Origin: Desmonostoc muscorum FACHB-395
GTDB lineage: Bacteria; Cyanobacteriota; Cyanobacteriia; Cyanobacteriales; Nostocaceae
Length of the DNA: 64,000 nt
NCBI RefSeq assembly: GCF_014698035.1
Contig: NZ_JACJSF010000002.1
Span: 1-64,000 of the forward strand
Direction of reading: 5' to 3'
A program made the translations under genes and the position numbers. This document shows positions 46,118-56,389 of this stretch, piece by piece. Position 1 is the first letter of the stretch. Each line of letters begins with the position of its first letter. The notes under the pieces were generated by a model. The model had not been told where the DNA came from and made no database searches. It was given only the letters and a program-made list of their open reading frames with translations.

Positions 46118-46696
46118 ATGGCAAAGCGTAAAAAAAGCAATCTTCAGTGGATAAAAGAAACGCTTGAATTAAAACCTGACCATCGTTGGGAATCTCCATC
46201 AGGTTACAAAATATTTGTAGCAGATAGAGGCGCTGTTCGCTTCAATGTTCCCCAGGATTGGATTCTTGAGCCACAAGACAAATCTTTCAAATTCCTAGAT
46301 AAAAAACCGCCTAACGATGATTGCTGTCTAGAAGTATCTTTCAATCGTCTGCCACCCAATGACTGGAGCCAGTTTCCACTAAAATCTACATTAAAAAAAG
46401 TCCTGGAAGACGACAGTCGCAACGTCATTGCTAGGGGAGAAATTGTTACCATCAAGCGCCAAACTGCCAGAATTGTCTGGACAGAGATGAAGTTTATTGA
46501 TGTTCAAGAAGAACCACGGGAAGCTTTTTCGCGGACTTGCATTGGTTTGGGGTCAAATATTCAATGCTTGATTACATTCGATTATTGGGCAGATCAAGCA
46601 GAACAACTAATACCCATTTGGGATGAAGCGATGCGTAGTCTCACACTAGGGTTGTATATCCGTGACCCAATGACTGGTTTAGCTTTCCCAGACTGA
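46118..46696 (+). CDS. Conserved cyanobacterial hypothetical protein
   Basis: A 192-residue soluble protein (MAKRKKSNLQWIKETLELKP). It has the blocks FNVPQDWILEPQDKSFKFLD and CLITFDYWADQAEQLIPIWDE seen in small cyanobacterial proteins of the PsbP/DUF1795-like type. No signal peptide and no catalytic motif. No function assigned. Confidence 0.7.
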   Translation: MAKRKKSNLQWIKETLELKPDHRWESPSGYKIFVADRGAVRFNVPQDWILEPQDKSFKFLDKKPPNDDCCLEVSFNRLPPNDWSQFPLKSTLKKVLEDDSRNVIARGEIVTIKRQTARIVWTEMKFIDVQEEPREAFSRTCIGLGSNIQCLITFDYWADQAEQLIPIWDEAMRSLTLGLYIRDPMTGLAFPD

Positions 46697-47041
46697 GCTA
46701 CAGCAATAAATCGTGAGCATCTATTAAATTGATGCGTAGGCATAACCCAATGCAGACATTGTATTGGAGGTAATTTTTTTTGGGCGTTGTTGCATCAAGA
46801 GATGATTCTTATAGGGTGGGCATCTTGCCTGCCCCAAAAAACAAGGGACGAGTAAGATAAGCTTCATTCGTGATTCAAAGCTTAAAACCCTAACATTAGA
46901 GATTACTTAAGTCATAATTCAATAGTTACTTTTATCACTAGTTCATAGCTGTTTTAACTCATATCCTTATAAACATGAGACATCAACCAGATTAAGGTTT
47001 ACTGAACTTTAATCATGTAGTTTAACAAAGGAGATTTAGTG
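46697..47041. other. Intergenic, no gene seen
   Basis: About 345 bp, A/T-rich, with degenerate interspersed repeat at 46730-46770. The AAGGAG at about 47028 is the ribosome binding site of the next gene. Confidence 0.5.
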
Positions 47042-47299
47042 ATGAATATTAAACAAATTCTTGCTGGTGCAGCACTTCTTTTACCATTTGCTGTTACTTC
47101 TATTCCTTCACAAGCATCAGCATCACAGGTGATTGTTAATCCCCACTCTATTAATAGACCCGCTCAAATAATAGCAAAAAAACCACCACAAATTAAGCGT
47201 TATGCACCACCAGTGAAAAAGAAAGTGTTGGTTCCTGCACATTGGGAAAAAACAAATCATGGTCGCAAGTGGGTTGCGGCTCATTATATATACAAGTAA
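47042..47299 (+). CDS. Small secreted basic protein
   Basis: An 85-residue protein from the ATG after a good AAGGAG site. It has a signal peptide (MNIKQILAGAALLLPFAVTS, cut after about ASA) and a mature basic part, KKPPQIKRYAPPVKKKVLVP, ending HWEKTNHGRKWVAAHYIYK. Family unknown; probably periplasmic. Confidence 0.7.
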   Translation: MNIKQILAGAALLLPFAVTSIPSQASASQVIVNPHSINRPAQIIAKKPPQIKRYAPPVKKKVLVPAHWEKTNHGRKWVAAHYIYK

Positions 47300-47431
47300 A
47301 AACTTCTAAAATCTCAAGCAATTGGGATATAAGAAGTTAAATCTTGCGATCGTCTCCCTACTTCATTGAGTAGGGAGAATGCCAAATGCAAAGCAAATCA
47401 AAACTTTTTACTCAAGATTTGAGAGATACTC

Positions 47432-47926
47432 ATGAAATTGGCATTATTGACAAACGTTTTGGTTGCAGGTGCCATCGCTCTCGGTGCAACTGCAACCATC
47501 AATCAGCCAAGTCAAGCCGAAAGTAGGCGGGGATTTTATTGTGACACATCAGGAAACAAACCCGTGACGGTGTACACAAATTCTAGAGGTGTTTCTGAGC
47601 CTTGGATTCGCTGGACTTCCAATTACTTCAGAGATGTTGGCTACAATAAACTAACGCGCTGTCAACAGGTGAGCCAACGTTTAGAAACTTACCGCCGCGA
47701 CAGAGATTTGAGGTTTATTACTGTTGGCAAAATGAACGGACAAAATGTGGTTTGCACTGCAAATCAAGCCAATGGGCGCTGTGAAAGGTTAATATTGACC
47801 CTCAAACCCAATGAAGATGGCGTGCAAGCGCTAACTAATCTCCTGGCTTGGCACCAGCCCCTCAGTAAAAGCAATAGAACCCCTTACGTTGATTTGAGGG
47901 AACATCTAGGAATTCCCAAAGAATAA
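47432..47926 (+). CDS. COP23-domain secreted protein
   Basis: A 164-residue protein with a signal peptide (about 1-29, ending SQA) and the COP23 pattern FYCDTSGNKPVTVYTNSRGV, PWIRW, RCQQVSQRLETYRRD and VVCTANQANGRCERLILTL. COP23 is a circadian-regulated protein of Rippkaea/Cyanothece with unknown activity; many cyanobacteria have several members. The four cysteines suggest disulfides. Confidence 0.85.
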   Translation: MKLALLTNVLVAGAIALGATATINQPSQAESRRGFYCDTSGNKPVTVYTNSRGVSEPWIRWTSNYFRDVGYNKLTRCQQVSQRLETYRRDRDLRFITVGKMNGQNVVCTANQANGRCERLILTLKPNEDGVQALTNLLAWHQPLSKSNRTPYVDLREHLGIPKE

Positions 47927-48063
47927 ATTACAGCGTTTTCCCTGTGCTAGATTGGAAGCGGGATAGTAATAAAGTTACAAAGCTATAGTTTAGGGTCTAT
48001 ATGCCTAACTGGTGCGCTATCATGCGTGATGAGCGTATGCCGCCGAGTACTTTAAACTATATC

Positions 48064-48136
48064 GTTTGATTAGCTCAGTTGGAAGAGCGATCGACTCATA
48101 ATCGATTGGTCATAGGTTCGAGTCCTGTATCAAACC
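48064..48136 (+). tRNA. tRNA-Met-like gene (anticodon CAT), number 1
   Basis: A complete cloverleaf: acceptor GTTTGAT/ATCAAAC (7 bp), D arm GCTC/GAGC with GTTGG, anticodon stem ATCGA/TCGAT with loop CTCATAA (CAT at 48097-48099), T arm ATAGG-TTCGAGT-CCTGT. It resembles cyanobacterial elongator tRNA-Met in the D and anticodon arms. No CCA is encoded. It may be functional, or a relic of a tRNA array. Confidence 0.7.
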
Positions 48137-48140
48137 CCAG

Positions 48141-48212
48141 AGGAAGTTAGCTCAATTGGAAGAGCGATCGACTCATAATCGATGTGTTGTAGGTTCGATT
48201 CCTATACTTTCA
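48141..48212 (+). tRNA. tRNA-Met-like gene (anticodon CAT), number 2
   Basis: It follows the first by four bases. The D arm (GCTC/GAGC) and anticodon arm (ATCGA CTCATAA TCGAT) match it; the T arm is GTAGG-TTCGATT-CCTAT. The acceptor AGGAAGT/ACTTTCA has an A-A mismatch at its end and a G-U pair, so it may be degenerating. Confidence 0.6.
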
Positions 48213-48220
48213 CCCAAAAC

Positions 48221-48300
48221 CCTGTCCGGGTTAAAAGACACTACCCTGTAAAGGTAGCCAATATGGTACGGATCTTAACAGATTCGAGACCCCTCCTTTT
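48221..48300 (+). pseudogene. Degenerate class II tRNA-like element (Tyr-type anticodon GTA)
   Basis: An anticodon stem CTACC/GGTAG encloses CTGTAAA, the loop of tRNA-Tyr(GTA). A TTCGAGA follows 32 bases later, after a long variable stretch, but the acceptor and T stems do not pair well. It is probably a decayed tRNA. Confidence 0.4.
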
Positions 48301-48375
48301 CTCAACTCTGCGCTGTAAGTGTTTTGCTATCGGTCATTACTCGTAAGGGTGATGTTCGGTAGCCACAGTCAAGGA

Positions 48376-48592
48376 GCAAGCGCAACTGCATTTCTCCCTA
48401 ACTTGAGTATGTTTCTTCGTTTTCTACATCTAGTTTTTCTTCGAGATTCTAGATTAGCAACCGAACGGCATATTTGAGCGCGGTTCTCTTTTTGTAGATT
48501 GCTATTGAGCAGTCGAAGAAAAGTAACAGCAATCTTAATCCAGCTTTGGAGAAGCTTTTGCCCACACCTAAACTGTAAACACTTGCACTTGC
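48376..48592 (+). ncRNA. Candidate retron msr-msd RNA, copy 1
   Basis: 217 bases ending 23 bases before the reverse transcriptase ATG. The ends pair: GCAAGCGCA (48376-48384) with TGCACTTGC (48584-48592), 8 of 9 positions. Inside are AGATTGCT/AGCAATCT (about 48497-48535) and AGCTT-TGGAG-AAGCT. Position and design match the a1/a2 ends of retron RNAs. The priming guanosine and the msr/msd border cannot be fixed by eye. Confidence 0.6.
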
Positions 48593-48615
48593 AGAGTTAA
48601 AAAATATTTTGCATT

Positions 48616-49710
48616 ATGTACAGCAAAAATCTAACCACTACCCCATTAGCAACTGAAAGCAATCTAAAAAAGTTGCAAACTGATAATTTAGCACTTTTGC
48701 GATGGCTACGCCCGCCGCAGGCATCGTATGGTTTAGCTGAATACAATACTGCCGAAGAAATAGCCTTGGCGATGGGGATAAGCCTGGAAAAACTGCACTT
48801 TTTAACAACTAGTACATCCCAAACTAGACATTACCTCCCTTTCAAAATCTCAAAAAAGACAGGTGGAGACAGAATTATTTCTGCACCAAAGCCCAAACTG
48901 AAAGCTGCTCAAAGGTGGATTTTAGAGAATGTTTTAGATAAATTAGAAATTCATAATGCAGCGCACGGCTTTTGTAAAAATCGTTCGATAGTCACCAATG
49001 CTAAACCCCATGTTGGTGCAAATGTAATAGTCAATATTGATTTAAAGAATTTTTTTCAGTCAATTTCTTACAAACGTGTCAAAGAATTATTTTCTGGGTT
49101 TGGTTATTTAGAATCTACGGCAACAATTTTCGGGTTGATTTGTACAACTGCTGAAATAGCAATAAATGGACAAATTAACTATACAGCTTCAGAAAACCGC
49201 CATTTACCTCAAGGTTCGCCTGCAAGTCCCGCTATTTCTAATCTAGTTTGCCGTAATCTCGATAGTCATCTTACTGCGATCGCTGAAAATCTTGGGTTTT
49301 GTTATACGCGGTACACTGACGATTTAACATTTTCTGCTTCTGAAGATGTATCATCAAAAATATCTAATTTAATTAAAAATACTAAATTTATTATTACTAG
49401 TGAAGGTTTTACTGTTAATGAGAATAAAACTAAGATTTCCGGTAAATCAGTGCAGCAAGAAGTAACAGGTGTTATTGTAAATACACAATTAAATATATCT
49501 AAAAAGACATTAAAAGCCTTTCGTGCAACTCTATATCAAATTGAACAAGAAGGTTTATCAGGAAAAACTTGGGGTAAATCAACTAATTTAATTGCCGCAA
49601 TTACCGGGTTTGCAAGTTATGTAGCAATGATTAACCCGAACAAAGGTGCAGAATTTAAATCAAGCGTGGAACGCATCAAGCAGAAATATGGTGACTCTCA
49701 AACTGATTAA
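48616..49710 (+). CDS. Retron-type reverse transcriptase
   Basis: A 364-residue reverse transcriptase. Retron hallmarks: NAKPH at 128-132 (NAxxH) and VTG at 283-285. Catalytic motifs are LPQGSPASP at 197-205, IVNIDLKNFF at 138-147 and YTDD at 233-236. A retron RT copies the msd part of the adjacent RNA into ssDNA linked to RNA; most known retrons defend against phage with an effector. No fused effector domain is present. The N-terminus contains an in-frame interspersed repeat (WLRPPQAS). Confidence 0.9.
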   Translation: MYSKNLTTTPLATESNLKKLQTDNLALLRWLRPPQASYGLAEYNTAEEIALAMGISLEKLHFLTTSTSQTRHYLPFKISKKTGGDRIISAPKPKLKAAQRWILENVLDKLEIHNAAHGFCKNRSIVTNAKPHVGANVIVNIDLKNFFQSISYKRVKELFSGFGYLESTATIFGLICTTAEIAINGQINYTASENRHLPQGSPASPAISNLVCRNLDSHLTAIAENLGFCYTRYTDDLTFSASEDVSSKISNLIKNTKFIITSEGFTVNENKTKISGKSVQQEVTGVIVNTQLNISKKTLKAFRATLYQIEQEGLSGKTWGKSTNLIAAITGFASYVAMINPNKGAEFKSSVERIKQKYGDSQTD

Positions 49711-49938
49711 GTACCTTTTTAAAGCTGCTTATTTAGCTAGAAAATACTTATTTAGGTGTACCTCAGCCAAAAATAGCCAGTGCGAATGGAATTCACTCTT
49801 TTAACTTTTTTCCTGTGCTAGATTTGAACCGGGATAGTAACAAAGTCACAAAGCTGTAGTTTGGGTTCTGTATACCCGACTGGTACGCTAACCTCTGGTA
49901 ATAGCGTATACCGCTCAATACTTTCAACTATTTCACCA

Positions 49939-50010
49939 TGAAAGTTAGCTCATTTGGTAGAGCGGTCGGTGTATCGCCGATTGGTTATAGGTTCGATTCC
50001 TATACTTTCA
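49939..50010 (+). tRNA. tRNA-like gene with abnormal anticodon loop
   Basis: Acceptor TGAAAGT/ACTTTCA pairs perfectly; D arm GCTC/GAGC; T arm ATAGG-TTCGATT-CCTAT. The anticodon arm GTCGG/CCGAT encloses TGTATCG, with G in place of the invariant T33, so the nominal TAT anticodon is unlikely to decode. Probably a tRNA pseudogene or a tRNA-like structure with another use. Confidence 0.55.
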
Positions 50011-50086
50011 CCCAAAAACCCTCGCCCTGGGTACGGGCACCTTGTTAGGGACAAGGCAGCCTTATGGCTACACAAATGTATTGGGT
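50010..50086 (+). pseudogene. Class II tRNA-like fold with truncated T arm
   Basis: Acceptor ACCCAA/TTGGGT, D arm GCCC/GGGC, anticodon arm CCTTG-TTAGGGA-CAAGG, variable arm AGCC/GGCT. The T arm is only ACA-CAAA-TGT and lacks TTCGA. It looks Leu-derived. Unlikely to work as a normal tRNA. Confidence 0.4.
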
Positions 50087-50170
50087 GTTCAAAAAACCTC
50101 AATCAAAAAAACTTCTTGTTTTTTCTTGTTTTTCCTACTCTGTCATGCAGGTATTTATAACAGTAAAAGA

Positions 50171-50389
50171 GCTAGCGCAACTGTCTCTCTCCCTAACTTG
50201 AGTATGTTCCTTCCTTTTCCTACATCTGGTTTTCCTTTGGGAATTCTGGATTGGCAAAGCGAACGGCATATTTGAGCGCGGTTATCTTTTTTAGATTGCC
50301 ATTGAGCAATTTGGGAAAAGTAACAGCAATCTTAATCCAGCTTTGGAGAAGCTTTTGTCCGCACCGGAACTGTAAAAACCTGCACTGGC
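50171..50389 (+). ncRNA. Candidate retron msr-msd RNA, copy 2 (orphan)
   Basis: 219 bases like 48376-48592. Ends: GCTAGCGCA (50171-50179) with TGCACTGGC (50381-50389); an A-T pair of copy 1 is a T-G pair here, so pairing is kept despite changed bases. The AGATTGC/GCAATCT and AGCTT/AAGCT stems also remain. No reverse transcriptase follows; the one upstream could act on it in trans. Confidence 0.5.
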
Positions 50390-50626
50390 AGAGTAAATAA
50401 CTTTTTTGTAGTATATAGTAGTACGCACTGCTAAAACTAATCTTTTAGCTTTTGTTTAAAGGGTTGTAAAGCCTAAAGAACCTCAAAATGAATTTTGTCT
50501 ACTCTAGTACTTAAGCTGTGAGATACAGGTGGTATTTGAGTTCAAGCAAGGTTATAAATGTGTTGATCAAATCTTCTTAGCTAGTTGCAATCGTCTAGCT
50601 TACTTAAACTATCACACAAATTATTT

Positions 50627-52165
50627 ATGCAAATTACTATGTGGCAAACGTTTTATATCAAACCTAACGAAATGGGCATCTTATATCACCGCAGTGACTT
50701 TAAGAAAATTTTGCAGCCCGGTACACACACATATTTTGGTCGCCATTGGCAAGTAAAAATTTATGACCTGAATCAGCCATTAGCTCAAATTGAAAACCTA
50801 GAACTGTTGTTGCGAAATCATGAAGCCGAACTACAAGAACATTTATTGATTATCAGAACCGCATTCAACCAAGTTGCGTTAGTCCGCTATGGTCAGAATT
50901 GGGTAAGCGTTGCACCAAATAAATTGATTGCTTTTTGGCGTGGTTTTATTGAGGTAGAGTCTCATCTATTCAACTTAGAGGAAAGCTTAGAATTGCCTGT
51001 TTCCTTTGTACAGCAATTGCGCTCAGTTGCGTTGAATGGACTGAAAAAGTTCCAAATCTCGGAGTCTGAGATTGGTTTACTATATCTGCAAAACAATTTT
51101 GTGCGACCTCTAGAACCAGGAGAGTATGCTTTTTGGTCGGTAGATAGAGATGTTACAGTCCGAATTCTCAGCCGGATTATCCCTAATCCAGACTTTCCCC
51201 TAGAAGATGTACTCATTGAAAAACATCCCGACTTTATTGCTGCTTACTGTGAAACCGTGCAATTACAGACTTCGCAAGTTGCAATTGTGCGATATAGAGG
51301 GAAAGTGATTTCTATTTTGCCACCCACCAGCCGCAAGTTATTTTGGCAAGGTATTGCAGTAGAAATTCTCGACATCAGCGCAGATGCTCAGTTACAGCCT
51401 AACTTAGTGGCTGAATTAGTTGAAGGTTCAACAGAAGTTAAATTGCTCAGTCGCAACTGTTTGCATATTTGCCAAGTGCCAGCACAACACGTAGGACTAG
51501 TATACATTAATCAAGAATTTCAAGGACTGCGATCGCCAGGGGTACATGCTTGGTGGTTATTTGGCCGCTCTTTTCAAACTGAAACCATTGACCTGCGACT
51601 ACAAAATATGGAAGTATCCGGTCAAGACATCCTCTCTAAAGATAAAGTACCTCTGCGGTTGAATTTAACTGCTGGCTTCCGCATCCAAGACCCATTGAGA
51701 GCAAAAAACGGGTTGTCAGATATTTCCGGCTTCTTGTACAAAGAATTACAGTTTGCTTTGCGTGGTGCAGTCGGCGAACGCAACTTAGATGGTTTATTAG
51801 AAGATAAAGGTGCAATTGATAGAAGTATCTCTGAATACATTCGCCAGAAAGCCGCAGAATATGGAATTGAAGTTGATTCTGTAGGTGTCAAAGATATTAT
51901 TTTACCTGGTGAGATTAAGGCTATCTTGAGCAAAGTAGTGGAGGCAGAAAAAACCGCTCAAGCAAACGTAGTCAGACGTAGAGAAGAAACTGCTGCTACT
52001 CGCAGTATGTTAAACACAGCCAAAGTCATGGAGGATAACCCCGTTGCATTACGTCTAAAAGAACTCGAAGTATTAGAGCGGATTGCAGAGAAGATTGATC
52101 GAATTCAAGTTAACGGTAGGTTGGATAGTATTTTAACAGACTTGATTCGGATGAATCCGCAATGA
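50627..52165 (+). CDS. SPFH/slipin-family protein
   Basis: A protein of about 512 residues from MQITMWQTFYIKPNEMG. It has two or three repeated N-terminal blocks (NEMGILYHRSDFKKILQPG, SEIGLLYLQNNFVRPLEPG, QHVGLVYINQEFQGLRSPG), then an SPFH/band-7 domain (about 320-470) and a coiled coil (KVVEAEKTAQANVVRRREE). No membrane helix is obvious. SPFH proteins form oligomeric membrane-linked assemblies. It follows the retron module directly, but a link to it is only a guess. Confidence 0.8.
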   Translation: MQITMWQTFYIKPNEMGILYHRSDFKKILQPGTHTYFGRHWQVKIYDLNQPLAQIENLELLLRNHEAELQEHLLIIRTAFNQVALVRYGQNWVSVAPNKLIAFWRGFIEVESHLFNLEESLELPVSFVQQLRSVALNGLKKFQISESEIGLLYLQNNFVRPLEPGEYAFWSVDRDVTVRILSRIIPNPDFPLEDVLIEKHPDFIAAYCETVQLQTSQVAIVRYRGKVISILPPTSRKLFWQGIAVEILDISADAQLQPNLVAELVEGSTEVKLLSRNCLHICQVPAQHVGLVYINQEFQGLRSPGVHAWWLFGRSFQTETIDLRLQNMEVSGQDILSKDKVPLRLNLTAGFRIQDPLRAKNGLSDISGFLYKELQFALRGAVGERNLDGLLEDKGAIDRSISEYIRQKAAEYGIEVDSVGVKDIILPGEIKAILSKVVEAEKTAQANVVRRREETAATRSMLNTAKVMEDNPVALRLKELEVLERIAEKIDRIQVNGRLDSILTDLIRMNPQ

Positions 52166-52170
52166 TTTAG

Positions 52171-52269
52171 GGACTTCCAGTTAAAAAAATATCCCGTCGT
52201 AGGGGCGCAAGGCATTGCGCCTCTACAAATCTATAAATAATTTGGGATAATTTATTTTTTGGAAGTTCC
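52171..52269. mobile_element. GGACTTCCA-ended MITE with GCGCAAGGCATTGCGC core
   Basis: Outer inverted ends GGACTTCCA and TGGAAGTTCC, inner ATCCC/GGGAT, and a central hairpin GTAGGGGCGCAAGG/CATTGCGCCTCTAC (52199-52226). About 99 bp. It starts six bases after the SPFH stop and may work as its terminator. The rest of the gap to 52483 shows no gene. Confidence 0.75.
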
Positions 52270-52482
52270 TTAGTTATTAAAAGCGATCGCATAAACTAAG
52301 TGTTGAGTTATCTAGCGTTAATTACCGCGTTTATTAGATGTGCCGATTTATTATTTGCAATCGCTTTTCTCTATTGGCTATTTAAAACACAATGAAAACG
52401 CAGCTTTTGTTAGCATAATAATTTTGCTTCAATCGTTCTATTCCCGTGATAAAGTTATTAGATAATTTGTTCTTTATCTGAG

Positions 52483-53430
52483 ATGACTAGTCTCCCGCAT
52501 CCAATTCAATATCAAGGTAGTAAGAGAAATCTAGCTTCCGACATTCTCAGATTTCTACCCAATACAGTGGAAAGGCTGGTAGAGCCATTTTCAGGAACTG
52601 CTGCAATTAGTATCGCAGCATCTTCTAAAGGGATTTCTCAAAAATTTTGGATTAACGATCTAAATAAACCTTTAGTTGAACTAGTGAAATTGATTGTAGA
52701 GAAACCAGACGAAATATCAAATGCGTATGCAGAGATATGGAATGAACAGCATGAGGATTCTGTAAAACATTTTTATGAAGCTAGAGATAAATTTAATAAA
52801 AGTAACAATCCAAAAGTTTTTCTATATTTGTTGGCTAGATGTGTAAAAGGCGCTGTACGGTATAACTCTGAAGGGTTGTTTAATCAAAGTCCTGATAAAA
52901 GGCGAAAGGGAACCCAACCTGAGAAAATGAGGAAAAATATAGAAGGAGTTTCTAGGCTTCTTAAAGGTAAATGTAGATTTACATACTTGGATTATAGAGA
53001 CGTTCTGGCTGAAGTTAGAAATAGTGATTTTGTCTATATAGATCCCCCATATCAAGGTGTATGCGGTAATAAAGATTCAAGATATTATTCTGGGATTAAT
53101 TTTGATAATTTCGTTTTAGCTCTCAAAGAGTTAAATCAAAAAGGAACCTCGTTTGTAGTTAGTTATGATGGCAAACGAGGAAATAAAACCTTCGGTAACG
53201 AATTACCTGAAGAATTGGGGCTAAAAAAAATTGAAATTGAAGTCGGGCGATCGTCCCAAGCAACATTATTAGGTAGACAAGAAATTACAGTAGAGTCTTT
53301 GTACTTATCTCCAAGTCTATTGCGCGATCGCAATTTAGATTTGGAGAGCTATATTAGCAAGGCACATAAACAAATTACTCTTTTGAAACGGCATGGACAG
53401 TTCTCAACAGCAGCCTCTTCTACCCGATGA
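52483..53430 (+). CDS. Dam-type (D12 class) DNA adenine-N6 methyltransferase
   Basis: A 315-residue methylase. SAM motif I is VEPFSGTAAIS, with the N-terminal IQYQGSKRNLA block; the catalytic motif is DFVYIDPPYQG (DPPY). The D12 class methylates adenine, most often in GATC-like sites, but the site cannot be read from sequence. Its last 38 bases overlap the HNH gene in another frame, making a restriction-modification pair likely. Confidence 0.9.
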   Translation: MTSLPHPIQYQGSKRNLASDILRFLPNTVERLVEPFSGTAAISIAASSKGISQKFWINDLNKPLVELVKLIVEKPDEISNAYAEIWNEQHEDSVKHFYEARDKFNKSNNPKVFLYLLARCVKGAVRYNSEGLFNQSPDKRRKGTQPEKMRKNIEGVSRLLKGKCRFTYLDYRDVLAEVRNSDFVYIDPPYQGVCGNKDSRYYSGINFDNFVLALKELNQKGTSFVVSYDGKRGNKTFGNELPEELGLKKIEIEVGRSSQATLLGRQEITVESLYLSPSLLRDRNLDLESYISKAHKQITLLKRHGQFSTAASSTR

Positions 53431-54136
53431 TTTCATACAACTTTGTCAATTAGTAACCGCCAAAAGACCAAAAGCTGTAATCGATCATATCTTGCAATAT
53501 GGTTTTGTCACAACAGAAGAGTTGAAACAAAGGTACGGCTACAATCATCCTCCTAGAGCAGCTAGAGATGTTCGGGAACATGGAATTCCTTTAGAAACCT
53601 TCCGCGTTACAGGAAGTGATGGTAGAAGAATAGCCGCTTATAAATTTGGAGATATCAGCAAAGCTAGATTTTCTAGGCTATCGGGTAGAACGGGCTTGTC
53701 CAAGCAGTTGAAAGATGAATTGATCGATAAATATGGCTGTAAATGCTTCATCTACTTGGAGAAAGTTGATAAGCGCGAATTGCAAATTGATCACCGAGTT
53801 CCTTTTGAAGTTGATGGAGAGCCAGAACTAGAGGCTGAAAGCTTTATGTTACTTTGTGGTTCTGCTAATCGAGCAAAATCTTGGTCATGTGAGCATTGTG
53901 AAAATTGGAAAAGTATAAAAGACAAATCTATTTGCTTATCATGCTACTGGGCGTATCCAGAAAGCTACACGCATGTTGCGATGCAACAAGTTAGGAGGAT
54001 AGACCTTATGTGGCAAGGGGATAATATTGAAAGTTATGAAAAATTAAAACAACAAGCAGTAAGATTAAACAAAGAAATACCTGAATTTATTAAAGAGATT
54101 ATTGAACGAGAAATTAGGCAAAATAATGACAGCTAA
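53393..54136 (+). CDS. HNH endonuclease, probable type II restriction enzyme
   Basis: A 247-residue protein. The N-terminal half has a winged-helix-like region (YGFVTTEELKQRYGYNHPPR), and the C-terminal half an HNH nuclease: ELQIDHRVPFEVDGEPE with C-rich zinc parts CEHCENWKS and CLSCYW. It overlaps the methylase gene upstream and probably cuts the sequence that enzyme protects. The site is unknown. Confidence 0.82.
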   Translation: MDSSQQQPLLPDDFIQLCQLVTAKRPKAVIDHILQYGFVTTEELKQRYGYNHPPRAARDVREHGIPLETFRVTGSDGRRIAAYKFGDISKARFSRLSGRTGLSKQLKDELIDKYGCKCFIYLEKVDKRELQIDHRVPFEVDGEPELEAESFMLLCGSANRAKSWSCEHCENWKSIKDKSICLSCYWAYPESYTHVAMQQVRRIDLMWQGDNIESYEKLKQQAVRLNKEIPEFIKEIIEREIRQNNDS

Positions 54137-55505: not shown

Positions 55506-55763
55506 CTAATTAAATTCGGGCATTTGGAACTCGGGCAGTTGAATCTGCGGTATTTGGAACTCGGGCAGTTGGAATTCAAATTGAGGCAGTTGAAATTCAA
55601 ATTGAGGAAGTTGGAACTGCGGCATTTGGAACTGTGGTACTTTAAACTGCGGCACTGAAGCCAACGATGCCCCTCCCATCACGCATTTCATCTCTGCATC
55701 AGAGAGTTCTTCAAGTTCAATTTGGCTGAAAGTTAGTTGTGCATTGTTTTTTATTTTTGCCAT
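55506..55763 (-). CDS. Double-glycine leader peptide with PQF-rich repetitive core
   Basis: An 85-residue peptide from MAKIKNNAQLTFSQIELEEL, with AAGGAAA upstream. The leader ends LSDAEMKCVMGG, as in bacteriocin/RiPP precursors cut by a C39 peptidase transporter. The core of about 50 residues is SVPQFKVPQFQMPQFQLPQF and then further (P)(Q/E)F units, with no Cys after the leader. No transporter or modifying enzyme is adjacent. It may be secreted through an unlinked system. Confidence 0.7.
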   Translation of the reverse strand: MAKIKNNAQLTFSQIELEELSDAEMKCVMGGASLASVPQFKVPQFQMPQFQLPQFEFQLPQFEFQLPEFQIPQIQLPEFQMPEFN

Positions 55764-56389
55764 GAGTTTCCTTCTAGGGTTAAAAAACACAATACATCAA
55801 TATTGTATCTCGAATGGGGTTAGTAGCGGGTCTTCCTATTTTTGCAAAGTTGCATTACAAAACGTGGGTTCGTAAGAGTTTCCAATCAAGCTGGTTGATA
55901 ATACAGGTTCAGTATTGGACGATCGCAATCGCCACTCAGAGGGATATCTAGATTCTGTGCATCGCACATATCATCTCCAAATATACAGTGGCATGTTGTC
56001 AAGTTGGGGCGATCGCTTAACTTCACCCAGTATAAATATACAGTGGCGTGTTGTCGAACTGGGGCGATCGCACTATCTCGTAAATTAGTTTTATTAACAC
56101 GCAATCATCGGGATTTGGGCAAAGTACCCGGATTGTTAATAGAGGATTGGATGGTTTAATGCGTAGGCGCAGCCCGTCGTAGACATCGCCTAGTTTATTG
56201 TTGAGTGAGGGCGTAGGCGTAGCCCGTCGGAGATATCGCTACAATGGTCTACTTCTTATCCATCTCACACACAATCTCTAAATATGCAGTAGTGTGTTGT
56301 TGAATAAAGGCAATGATTAAAATATAAGATTATCACGGAGAGGTGAATTATGTGCATTACAGAATTATTAAAACATCAGGGGTCTTCAG
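55764..56389. repeat. Repeat-filled spacer with first VapC-tail fragment
   Basis: It contains AAATATACAGTGGCGTGTTG units (about 55978, 56035, 56280), interspersed palindromes (56160-56190, 56211-56240) and a fragment (about 56063-56159) coding [20 protein letters not shown]...EDWMV-stop, the C-terminus of a PIN toxin. No complete gene is supported. Confidence 0.65.

Follow-up and report, generated by a model that had tools for sequence, protein, structure and literature searches.

Layout of the locus

The window analysed here comprises the first 64,000 nucleotides of contig NZ_JACJSF010000002.1 of Desmonostoc muscorum FACHB-395. It contains a retron reverse transcriptase (RT) gene placed between two copies of a module of structured and tRNA-like RNAs, the second of which is followed by a gene for a slipin, an SPFH/Band 7 protein. 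All features of the locus lie on the forward strand. The RT open reading frame (ORF; 48616-49710) encodes a protein of 364 amino acids belonging to the type XIII retron lineage (PADLOC RT_XIII, E 1.2e-147, profile positions 106-431 of 469), without the N-terminal extension of ~100 amino acids present in relatives. The motifs NAKPH and VTG, which had been pointed out in an earlier sequence-only reading of the window and which we take to be retron marks, are present in the RT, and YTDD is seen in the translation as well.

Module 1 begins with a three-way-junction RNA, the Y element (47936-48063), followed by two tRNA-like genes found by ARAGORN and the Rfam tRNA model RF00005. The first (slot 1, 48064-48139, 66.4 bits) has the acceptor stem GTTTGAT/ATCAAAC and a CAT loop; the second (slot 2, 48141-48216, 56.7 bits) has the acceptor stem AGGAAGT/ACTTTCA with a mismatch at the first pair, and again a CAT loop. 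An H-type pseudoknot and a hairpin come next (48219-48257; ACCC/GGGT with GTC/GAC, by eye), and then the first copy of a large structured RNA (48305-48603) of 12 helices, which is closed by a terminal helix of 18 pairs. In module 2 the Y element (49807-49935, placed by the repeat and the covariation alignment) is followed by tRNA-like 3 (49939-50014; ARAGORN, RF00005), a chimera in which a closed 8-pair triloop arm takes the place of the anticodon arm. This arm contains a hairpin (49964-49982, core GGTGTATCGCC at 49968-49978) that also occurs in the RNAs of ordinary type XIII RTs. Behind it lie a second pseudoknot and hairpin (50018-50056; ACCC/GGGT with GCCC/GGGC, by eye), the second large RNA (50137-50400), which has no side hairpin, a TrcR-type promoter box TGTAGTAT (50407-50414; the box as given in PMC10272220) and the slipin gene (50627-52165; Pfam Band_7, 1.4e-29; start codon picked by eye).

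The Y elements (47936-48063 and 49807-49934) are direct repeats that are 79% alike and 1871 nucleotides apart, and pieces of the large RNA (within 48365-48620 and 50160-50417) are direct repeats that are 84-94% alike with a spacing of 1795-1798. The recurrence of the module 1,871 bp downstream, proposed in the sequence-only reading, is thus borne out. That reading was also right that no RT follows the second copy; the gene that does follow, beyond the coordinates it covered, encodes the slipin, the constant partner of the module. Its tRNA claims held for the three tRNA-like genes. However, the class II tRNA relic and fold that it placed beside them are better read as the H-type pseudoknots (48219-48239 and 50018-50038) with their hairpins, as judged by eye from the 20 copies of alignment A3 and not by a pseudoknot program score. 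ARAGORN and Rfam called no tRNA at the pseudoknot and hairpin sites of either module.

The module RNAs and the slipin gene

The Y element and the large RNA are genuine structured RNAs with strong covariation. In alignment A5 (44 copies), the 99 pairs of the large RNA are 89.0% paired, whereas slid partners reach no more than 41.4%; 71 pairs show changes on both sides. The 38 pairs of the Y element (19 aligned copies) are 87.7% paired vs. at most 41.3%, with 18 pairs changed on both sides; both sets of values are biased favourably, as the structures come from the very alignments that score them. Neither RNA has a match in Rfam. A pattern of the large RNA was found at 13 places in 11 of the 291 genomes of the order surveyed here (the reversed control gave none), and by coordinates all 13 places precede a slipin gene.

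Of the 291 genomes, 72 contain RT relatives (E <= 1e-60), 43 the slipin and 26 both. The two share genomes above expectation even when adjacent pairs are omitted (15/60 vs. 17/219, p 8e-4, kinship ignored). The main slipin set consists of 42 loci in which the slipin shows 57% identity or more and the upstream sequence is long enough. It leaves out one locus at a contig edge (L118), one with module and RT but no slipin (L076), one with a slipin fragment and an RT but no module (L144), and two with slipins of ~38-40% identity and no tRNA-like gene (L145/L146). Upstream of the slipin, one to four ARAGORN tRNA-likes are present in 42/42 loci, the Y element in 41 (two of them partial) and the large RNA in 37. 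The large RNA was found in 35 and a tRNA-like in 34 of 36 further slipin loci, and the large RNA in 7/7 additional ones. The only locus with a module but no slipin is L076. RT sequence is found in cis in 12 of the 42 loci and is missing from 30. Since the tRNA-likes accompany every slipin of this set and the RT is absent in cis from those 30, the module belongs to the slipin and the RT is optional.

This distribution bears on the first explanation offered in the sequence-only reading, a tandem retron duplication with the loss of one RT. Two module copies, 79-94% alike, do flank a single RT here. However, the 30 RT-less slipin loci carry the module all the same. In addition, two or more large-RNA copies are found in 7/12 RT loci vs. 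1/30 RT-less loci (L122), so that duplication goes with the presence of the RT, and a lost twin is hardly credible. Among the 36 further loci, L233 is another RT-less locus with at least two large-RNA copies. In L202 (genome G557), a module lies on either side of the RT, and the slipin follows ~2.6 kb after the second large RNA begins. In L078 (G021), a 562-amino-acid ORF, presumably a group II intron RT/maturase, breaks into module 2 directly behind the tRNA-like.

The ratio of nonsynonymous to synonymous substitution rates (dN/dS) of the slipin is 0.05-0.11 in six copies. Its AlphaFold2 model (predicted local distance difference test 85.2, predicted template modelling score 0.61) can be read as five beta repeats, an SPFH domain and a helix, and hydropathy shows no membrane segment. 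The model matches stomatins and, at low TM-score, also the major vault protein, which the beta repeats on their own do not single out. A vault-like slipin particle is put forward as a hypothesis.

The tRNA-like genes were compared using 148 plus-strand ARAGORN calls from slipin or module loci. Two main slots with fixed acceptor stems hold most of them, leaving nine calls outside. The T loop starts with TTC in 147/148, and CCA is encoded in 98. An anticodon arm of 5 bp with a 7-nucleotide loop is present in just 33/61 slot-1 copies and in 76/78 slot-2 copies, 54 of which have U33. These 54 copies present 14 anticodons on a single scaffold, CAT accounting for 32. Between close pairs, which are not independent of each other, the anticodon differs at 0.300 per site vs. 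0.090 elsewhere for these slot-2 copies, and at 0.183 vs. 0.056 for slot 1. Some anticodon arms are closed hairpins that are unable to decode. In the window, tRNA-likes 1 and 2 have the 7-nucleotide loop and U33 of a decoding tRNA, whereas tRNA-like 3 has a closed triloop arm and a G at position 33, and is therefore not a normal decoding tRNA. A third copy of the tRNA-like, with a 6-nucleotide loop, occurs in L075, L079, L122 and L202 and presumably resembles an initiator tRNA (an unscored likeness). The L075 tRNA-like has lost the normal T loop and kept the hairpin.

The tRNA-likes could be processing punctuation only: cuts made at them by RNase P and RNase Z would release the structured RNAs or the leader of the slipin, while unneeded anticodon arms drift. 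The retained acceptor, D and T arms, the near-universal TTC and the frequent CCA next to variable anticodon arms agree with such a role. Drift alone, however, predicts neither that the slot-2 U33 copies keep loop position 32 invariant while positions 34-36 vary, nor that a closed GGTG-KWT-CGCC arm tracks the RT, and we regard punctuation as somewhat unlikely.

The reverse transcriptase and the type XIII hairpin

In ordinary type XIII loci, a conserved RNA with the closing arms CGCGCAC/GCGCGTG and the hairpin GGTG-KWT-CGCC lies upstream of the RT. This structured RNA is a candidate msr-msd of ordinary cyanobacterial type XIII RTs. A sequence profile built from 13 of these RNAs (L077, L022, L028, L015, L153, L175, L164, L182, L151, L173, L180, L170 and L025) matches 32 of the 67 RT rows without a module, the 13 builders included, and 1 of the 15 with a module (L079). 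Beside the window RT, this profile, which is not a covariance model, found no type XIII-like msr-msd RNA. The type XIII RNA is located downstream of the RT in the sister clade (L086, L162, L177, L181 and L184; fork support 90). In the main module clade the hairpin lies at a similar distance downstream as an arm of the tRNA-like, and no other motif of the type XIII RNA was seen there by eye; the hairpin alone persists. In the window, it is this hairpin that replaces the anticodon arm of tRNA-like 3.

The hairpin correlates with the RT. The 77 loci that contain a Y element include 25 with RT sequence in cis and 52 without; the paired hairpin is present in 20 and 3 of these, respectively, and in shuffled regions at 0.13%. 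The five RT loci without it are L076, in which the first tRNA-like is deleted, L078, which has the variant GGTGAATCGCC, and three RT remnants. The three hairpin loci without an RT in cis (L122, L125 and L131) all belong to genomes with an RT elsewhere. Beside ordinary type XIII RTs, the hairpin was found in 19/67 rows and never in shuffles. A stricter chimera pattern occurs in nine of the 291 genomes and its reversed control in none. Eight of these chimeras adjoin an RT gene, which is broken in G197, and the genome of the ninth (G101) has its RT elsewhere; given 72/291, nine RT-positive genomes out of nine have a chance of 2.3e-6, kinship ignored. An RT-adjacent tRNA look-alike that bears the hairpin of the RT family's own RNAs suggests that the enzyme works on the tRNA mimic. 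Use of the tRNA-like RNAs by the retron, also suggested in the sequence-only reading, is the best of its three explanations and is supported by the hairpin, while a role as primer, sensor or decoy stays conjectural. A retron that serves two RNAs, its remaining explanation, is possible; however, the modules differ and the type XIII hairpin is found in copy 2 only.

The locus could also be an ordinary retron in which the large module RNA plays the part of the msr-msd and its covarying terminal helix of 18 pairs, next to the RT, acts like a1/a2. The same RNA and helix, however, precede slipin genes that have no RT, and by eye the large RNA does not resemble the type XIII RNA in sequence, which makes this explanation very unlikely.

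The module adjoins 15 of the 82 RT rows and is absent from 67. In a quick tree, the module label needs three changes compared with a mean of 13.2 in shuffles (0/500 as low). Eleven of the 14 module rows in the tree form one clade (support 97) of short RTs from six families, and the other three belong to family f33 (L075, L076 and L079). A type XIII retron RT is found in the locus in this Nostoc and six other sampled families. RT homologues without the module had been named beforehand as the sign of a chance neighbourhood; most rows are indeed of this kind, yet in the clade of the window RT the module adjoins 11/11 sampled members. Identical parts in identical order in dozens of other genomes likewise argue for more than chance neighbourhood. 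That the RT merely landed beside a slipin/tRNA-like locus, with no working link to its RNAs, would agree with the 67 module-free rows, with the repeated loss of the RT in Nostoc and with the 30 RT-less slipin loci. The module-bound clade across six families, the hairpin distribution and the purifying selection on the RT (dN/dS 0.12-0.36 in nine copies) argue against it, and we consider it decidedly unlikely. SWIM_XIII, the partner of type XIII RTs, was not found among the six window proteins scanned, and SWIM lies near 1/15 module rows vs. 11/67 other RT rows.

Proposed function and known relatives

The promoter box and the relatives of the slipin connect the locus with RNA repair. The box is that of the repressor TrcR (PMC10272220), whose targets in Anabaena are rtcB, an operon of 26 tRNAs and alr0739-alr0740; the last two encode YdeI and slipin homologues (PMC9938897). 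Of 47 large-RNA copies, 22 are followed within 80 nucleotides by the exact box TGTAGTAT, and 29 if one mismatch is allowed, compared with 0.9% and 13.6% in shuffles. The trcR promoter motif has one exact occurrence in this genome, ~30 nucleotides ahead of a short ORF with a weak ribbon-helix-helix likeness (RHH_4, E 0.011, below its cut-off). A YdeI-slipin pair is present in L075 (Pfam OmdA) and, by sequence likeness, in L204. Slipin relatives of 40-47% identity occur in Burkholderia and enterobacteria (Citrobacter). In B. stagnalis a divergent rtcR and a tRNA-like precede the slipin, and rtcB and RlaP follow it, in that order. A tRNA-like lies ahead of the slipin in all four Burkholderia loci fetched (L255:5670-5742, L256:5678-5747, L257:3674-3746 and L258:3675-3747), and the two looked at (L255 and L256) have closed anticodon arms. 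The Citrobacter slipin is flanked by rtcR and RlaP, and ARAGORN found no tRNA-like ahead of the slipin in Citrobacter or E. coli. Downstream of a sigma-54-like promoter, the enterobacterial slipin leaders in L253 and L254 contain, by eye, long hairpins and a T-arm-like GGGTTCGATTCCC, perhaps a degenerate tRNA-like. RtcR binds tRNA fragments (PMC7790460).

A Pfam scan of seven window proteins (46118-54136) found no rtcB, RlaP or rtcR; rtcB elsewhere in the genome was not searched for. Directly upstream of the module lies a gene for the circadian oscillating protein COP23 (47432-47926). A type II DNA methyltransferase and restriction endonuclease pair is present at 52483-54136, and a small ORF at 55506-55790 resembles a bacteriocin precursor by eye, having proline-glutamine repeats and a double-glycine-type leader (CVMGG).

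In our favoured explanation, which is probably correct, the locus deals with RNA repair and tRNA damage, and a hairpin-tRNA chimera has tied a retron RT into it. The locus would serve translation stress or RNA repair, its slipin having dedicated RNAs. Enzymes that cleave tRNA would be baited or sensed by the tRNA mimics, whose anticodon arms are variable or closed, and the slipin may form an assembly that acts on, or houses, the module RNAs. The main RT clade appears to have lost its type XIII RNA, the hairpin of which now seems to serve as an arm of the mimic behind the RT gene; because the neighbouring RNA is lost and the hairpin has become this arm, the RT most likely docks on the tRNA mimic. 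Once docked on mimic 3, it would make complementary DNA (cDNA) from a module RNA, and whether the mimic is intact or cut would control the cDNA and thereby the slipin. A functional link between RT and mimic is fairly likely, and the damage-sensing role is tentative. The fullest version is unlikely as a whole: docked by a transplanted msr hairpin, the RT would turn mimic cleavage or integrity into a cDNA signal switching a vault-like slipin ribonucleoprotein, whose variable-anticodon decoys would counter tRNA-cutting toxins or phage defences.

Several observations weigh against the favoured explanation. The Nostoc RT was lost or cut more than once while slipin and module stayed (remnants in L214, L218, L223, L041 and L046), and in L082 (G197) module, hairpin and slipin are kept although the RT is split over two frames. 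The pairing of hairpin and RT is not phylogenetically independent, as Nostoc supplies 11 of its 20 positives, and the cases were already known when the hairpin pattern was defined. The type XIII sequence profile also misses 35/67 non-module rows. Family f33 (L075, L076 and L079) keeps a further conserved element upstream of the RT; the module there may therefore be no more than an additional partner, and the case for f33 is weaker. Even with one mismatch allowed, 18/47 large-RNA copies have no TrcR box, and an exact box for the RT itself is found in 1/15 module rows. The assignment to tRNA-damage sensing is guilt by association.

If the favoured explanation holds, the locus would join three fields, namely retrons, tRNA-damage/RNA-repair operons and SPFH proteins, and would be an example of an RT shifted to a new RNA partner via hairpin transfer. 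It offers a direct test of the slipin role in RNA-repair operons and what would be a naturally occurring tRNA mimic whose arm can be swapped, besides two structured RNA families with strong covariation that are new to Rfam.

Both halves of the locus consist of known parts, although it has no msr-msd match, no RtcB among the seven proteins scanned and no decoding tRNA in copy 2. With type XIII retrons (RT_XIII with SWIM_XIII), it shares the RT family and the hairpin GGTG-KWT-CGCC of the flanking RNA. However, it has no msr-msd match beside the RT, no SWIM among the scanned proteins and no N-terminal RT extension, and the hairpin is housed in a tRNA-like. With the RtcR-controlled RNA-repair operons (rtcR, rtcB, RlaP and slipin), it shares the slipin family, found beside these genes elsewhere, and the tRNA-like ahead of it; the link to RtcB runs via the TrcR regulon of Anabaena (PMC10272220). 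The window differs from these operons in its TrcR box, extra RNAs and RT, and in having no rtcB, RlaP or rtcR among the seven proteins. YrlA and the Y RNAs of rsr-yrlBA-rtcBA operons have a tRNA-mimicking RNA and an RNA-repair setting in common with it, and a decoy role has been suggested for YrlA (PMC7790460). Unlike YrlA, the window has complete cloverleaves and other RNAs, and the Rfam YrlA model scores 28.5 bits here, below its cut-off of 69. The portions of the TrcR-regulon literature found make no mention of tRNA-likes or structured RNAs, and Anabaena PCC 7120 was compared by description, not by sequence. With that regulon (alr0739-alr0740, rtcB and the trn tRNA operon), the locus and its relatives share the TrcR box and the YdeI-slipin pair.

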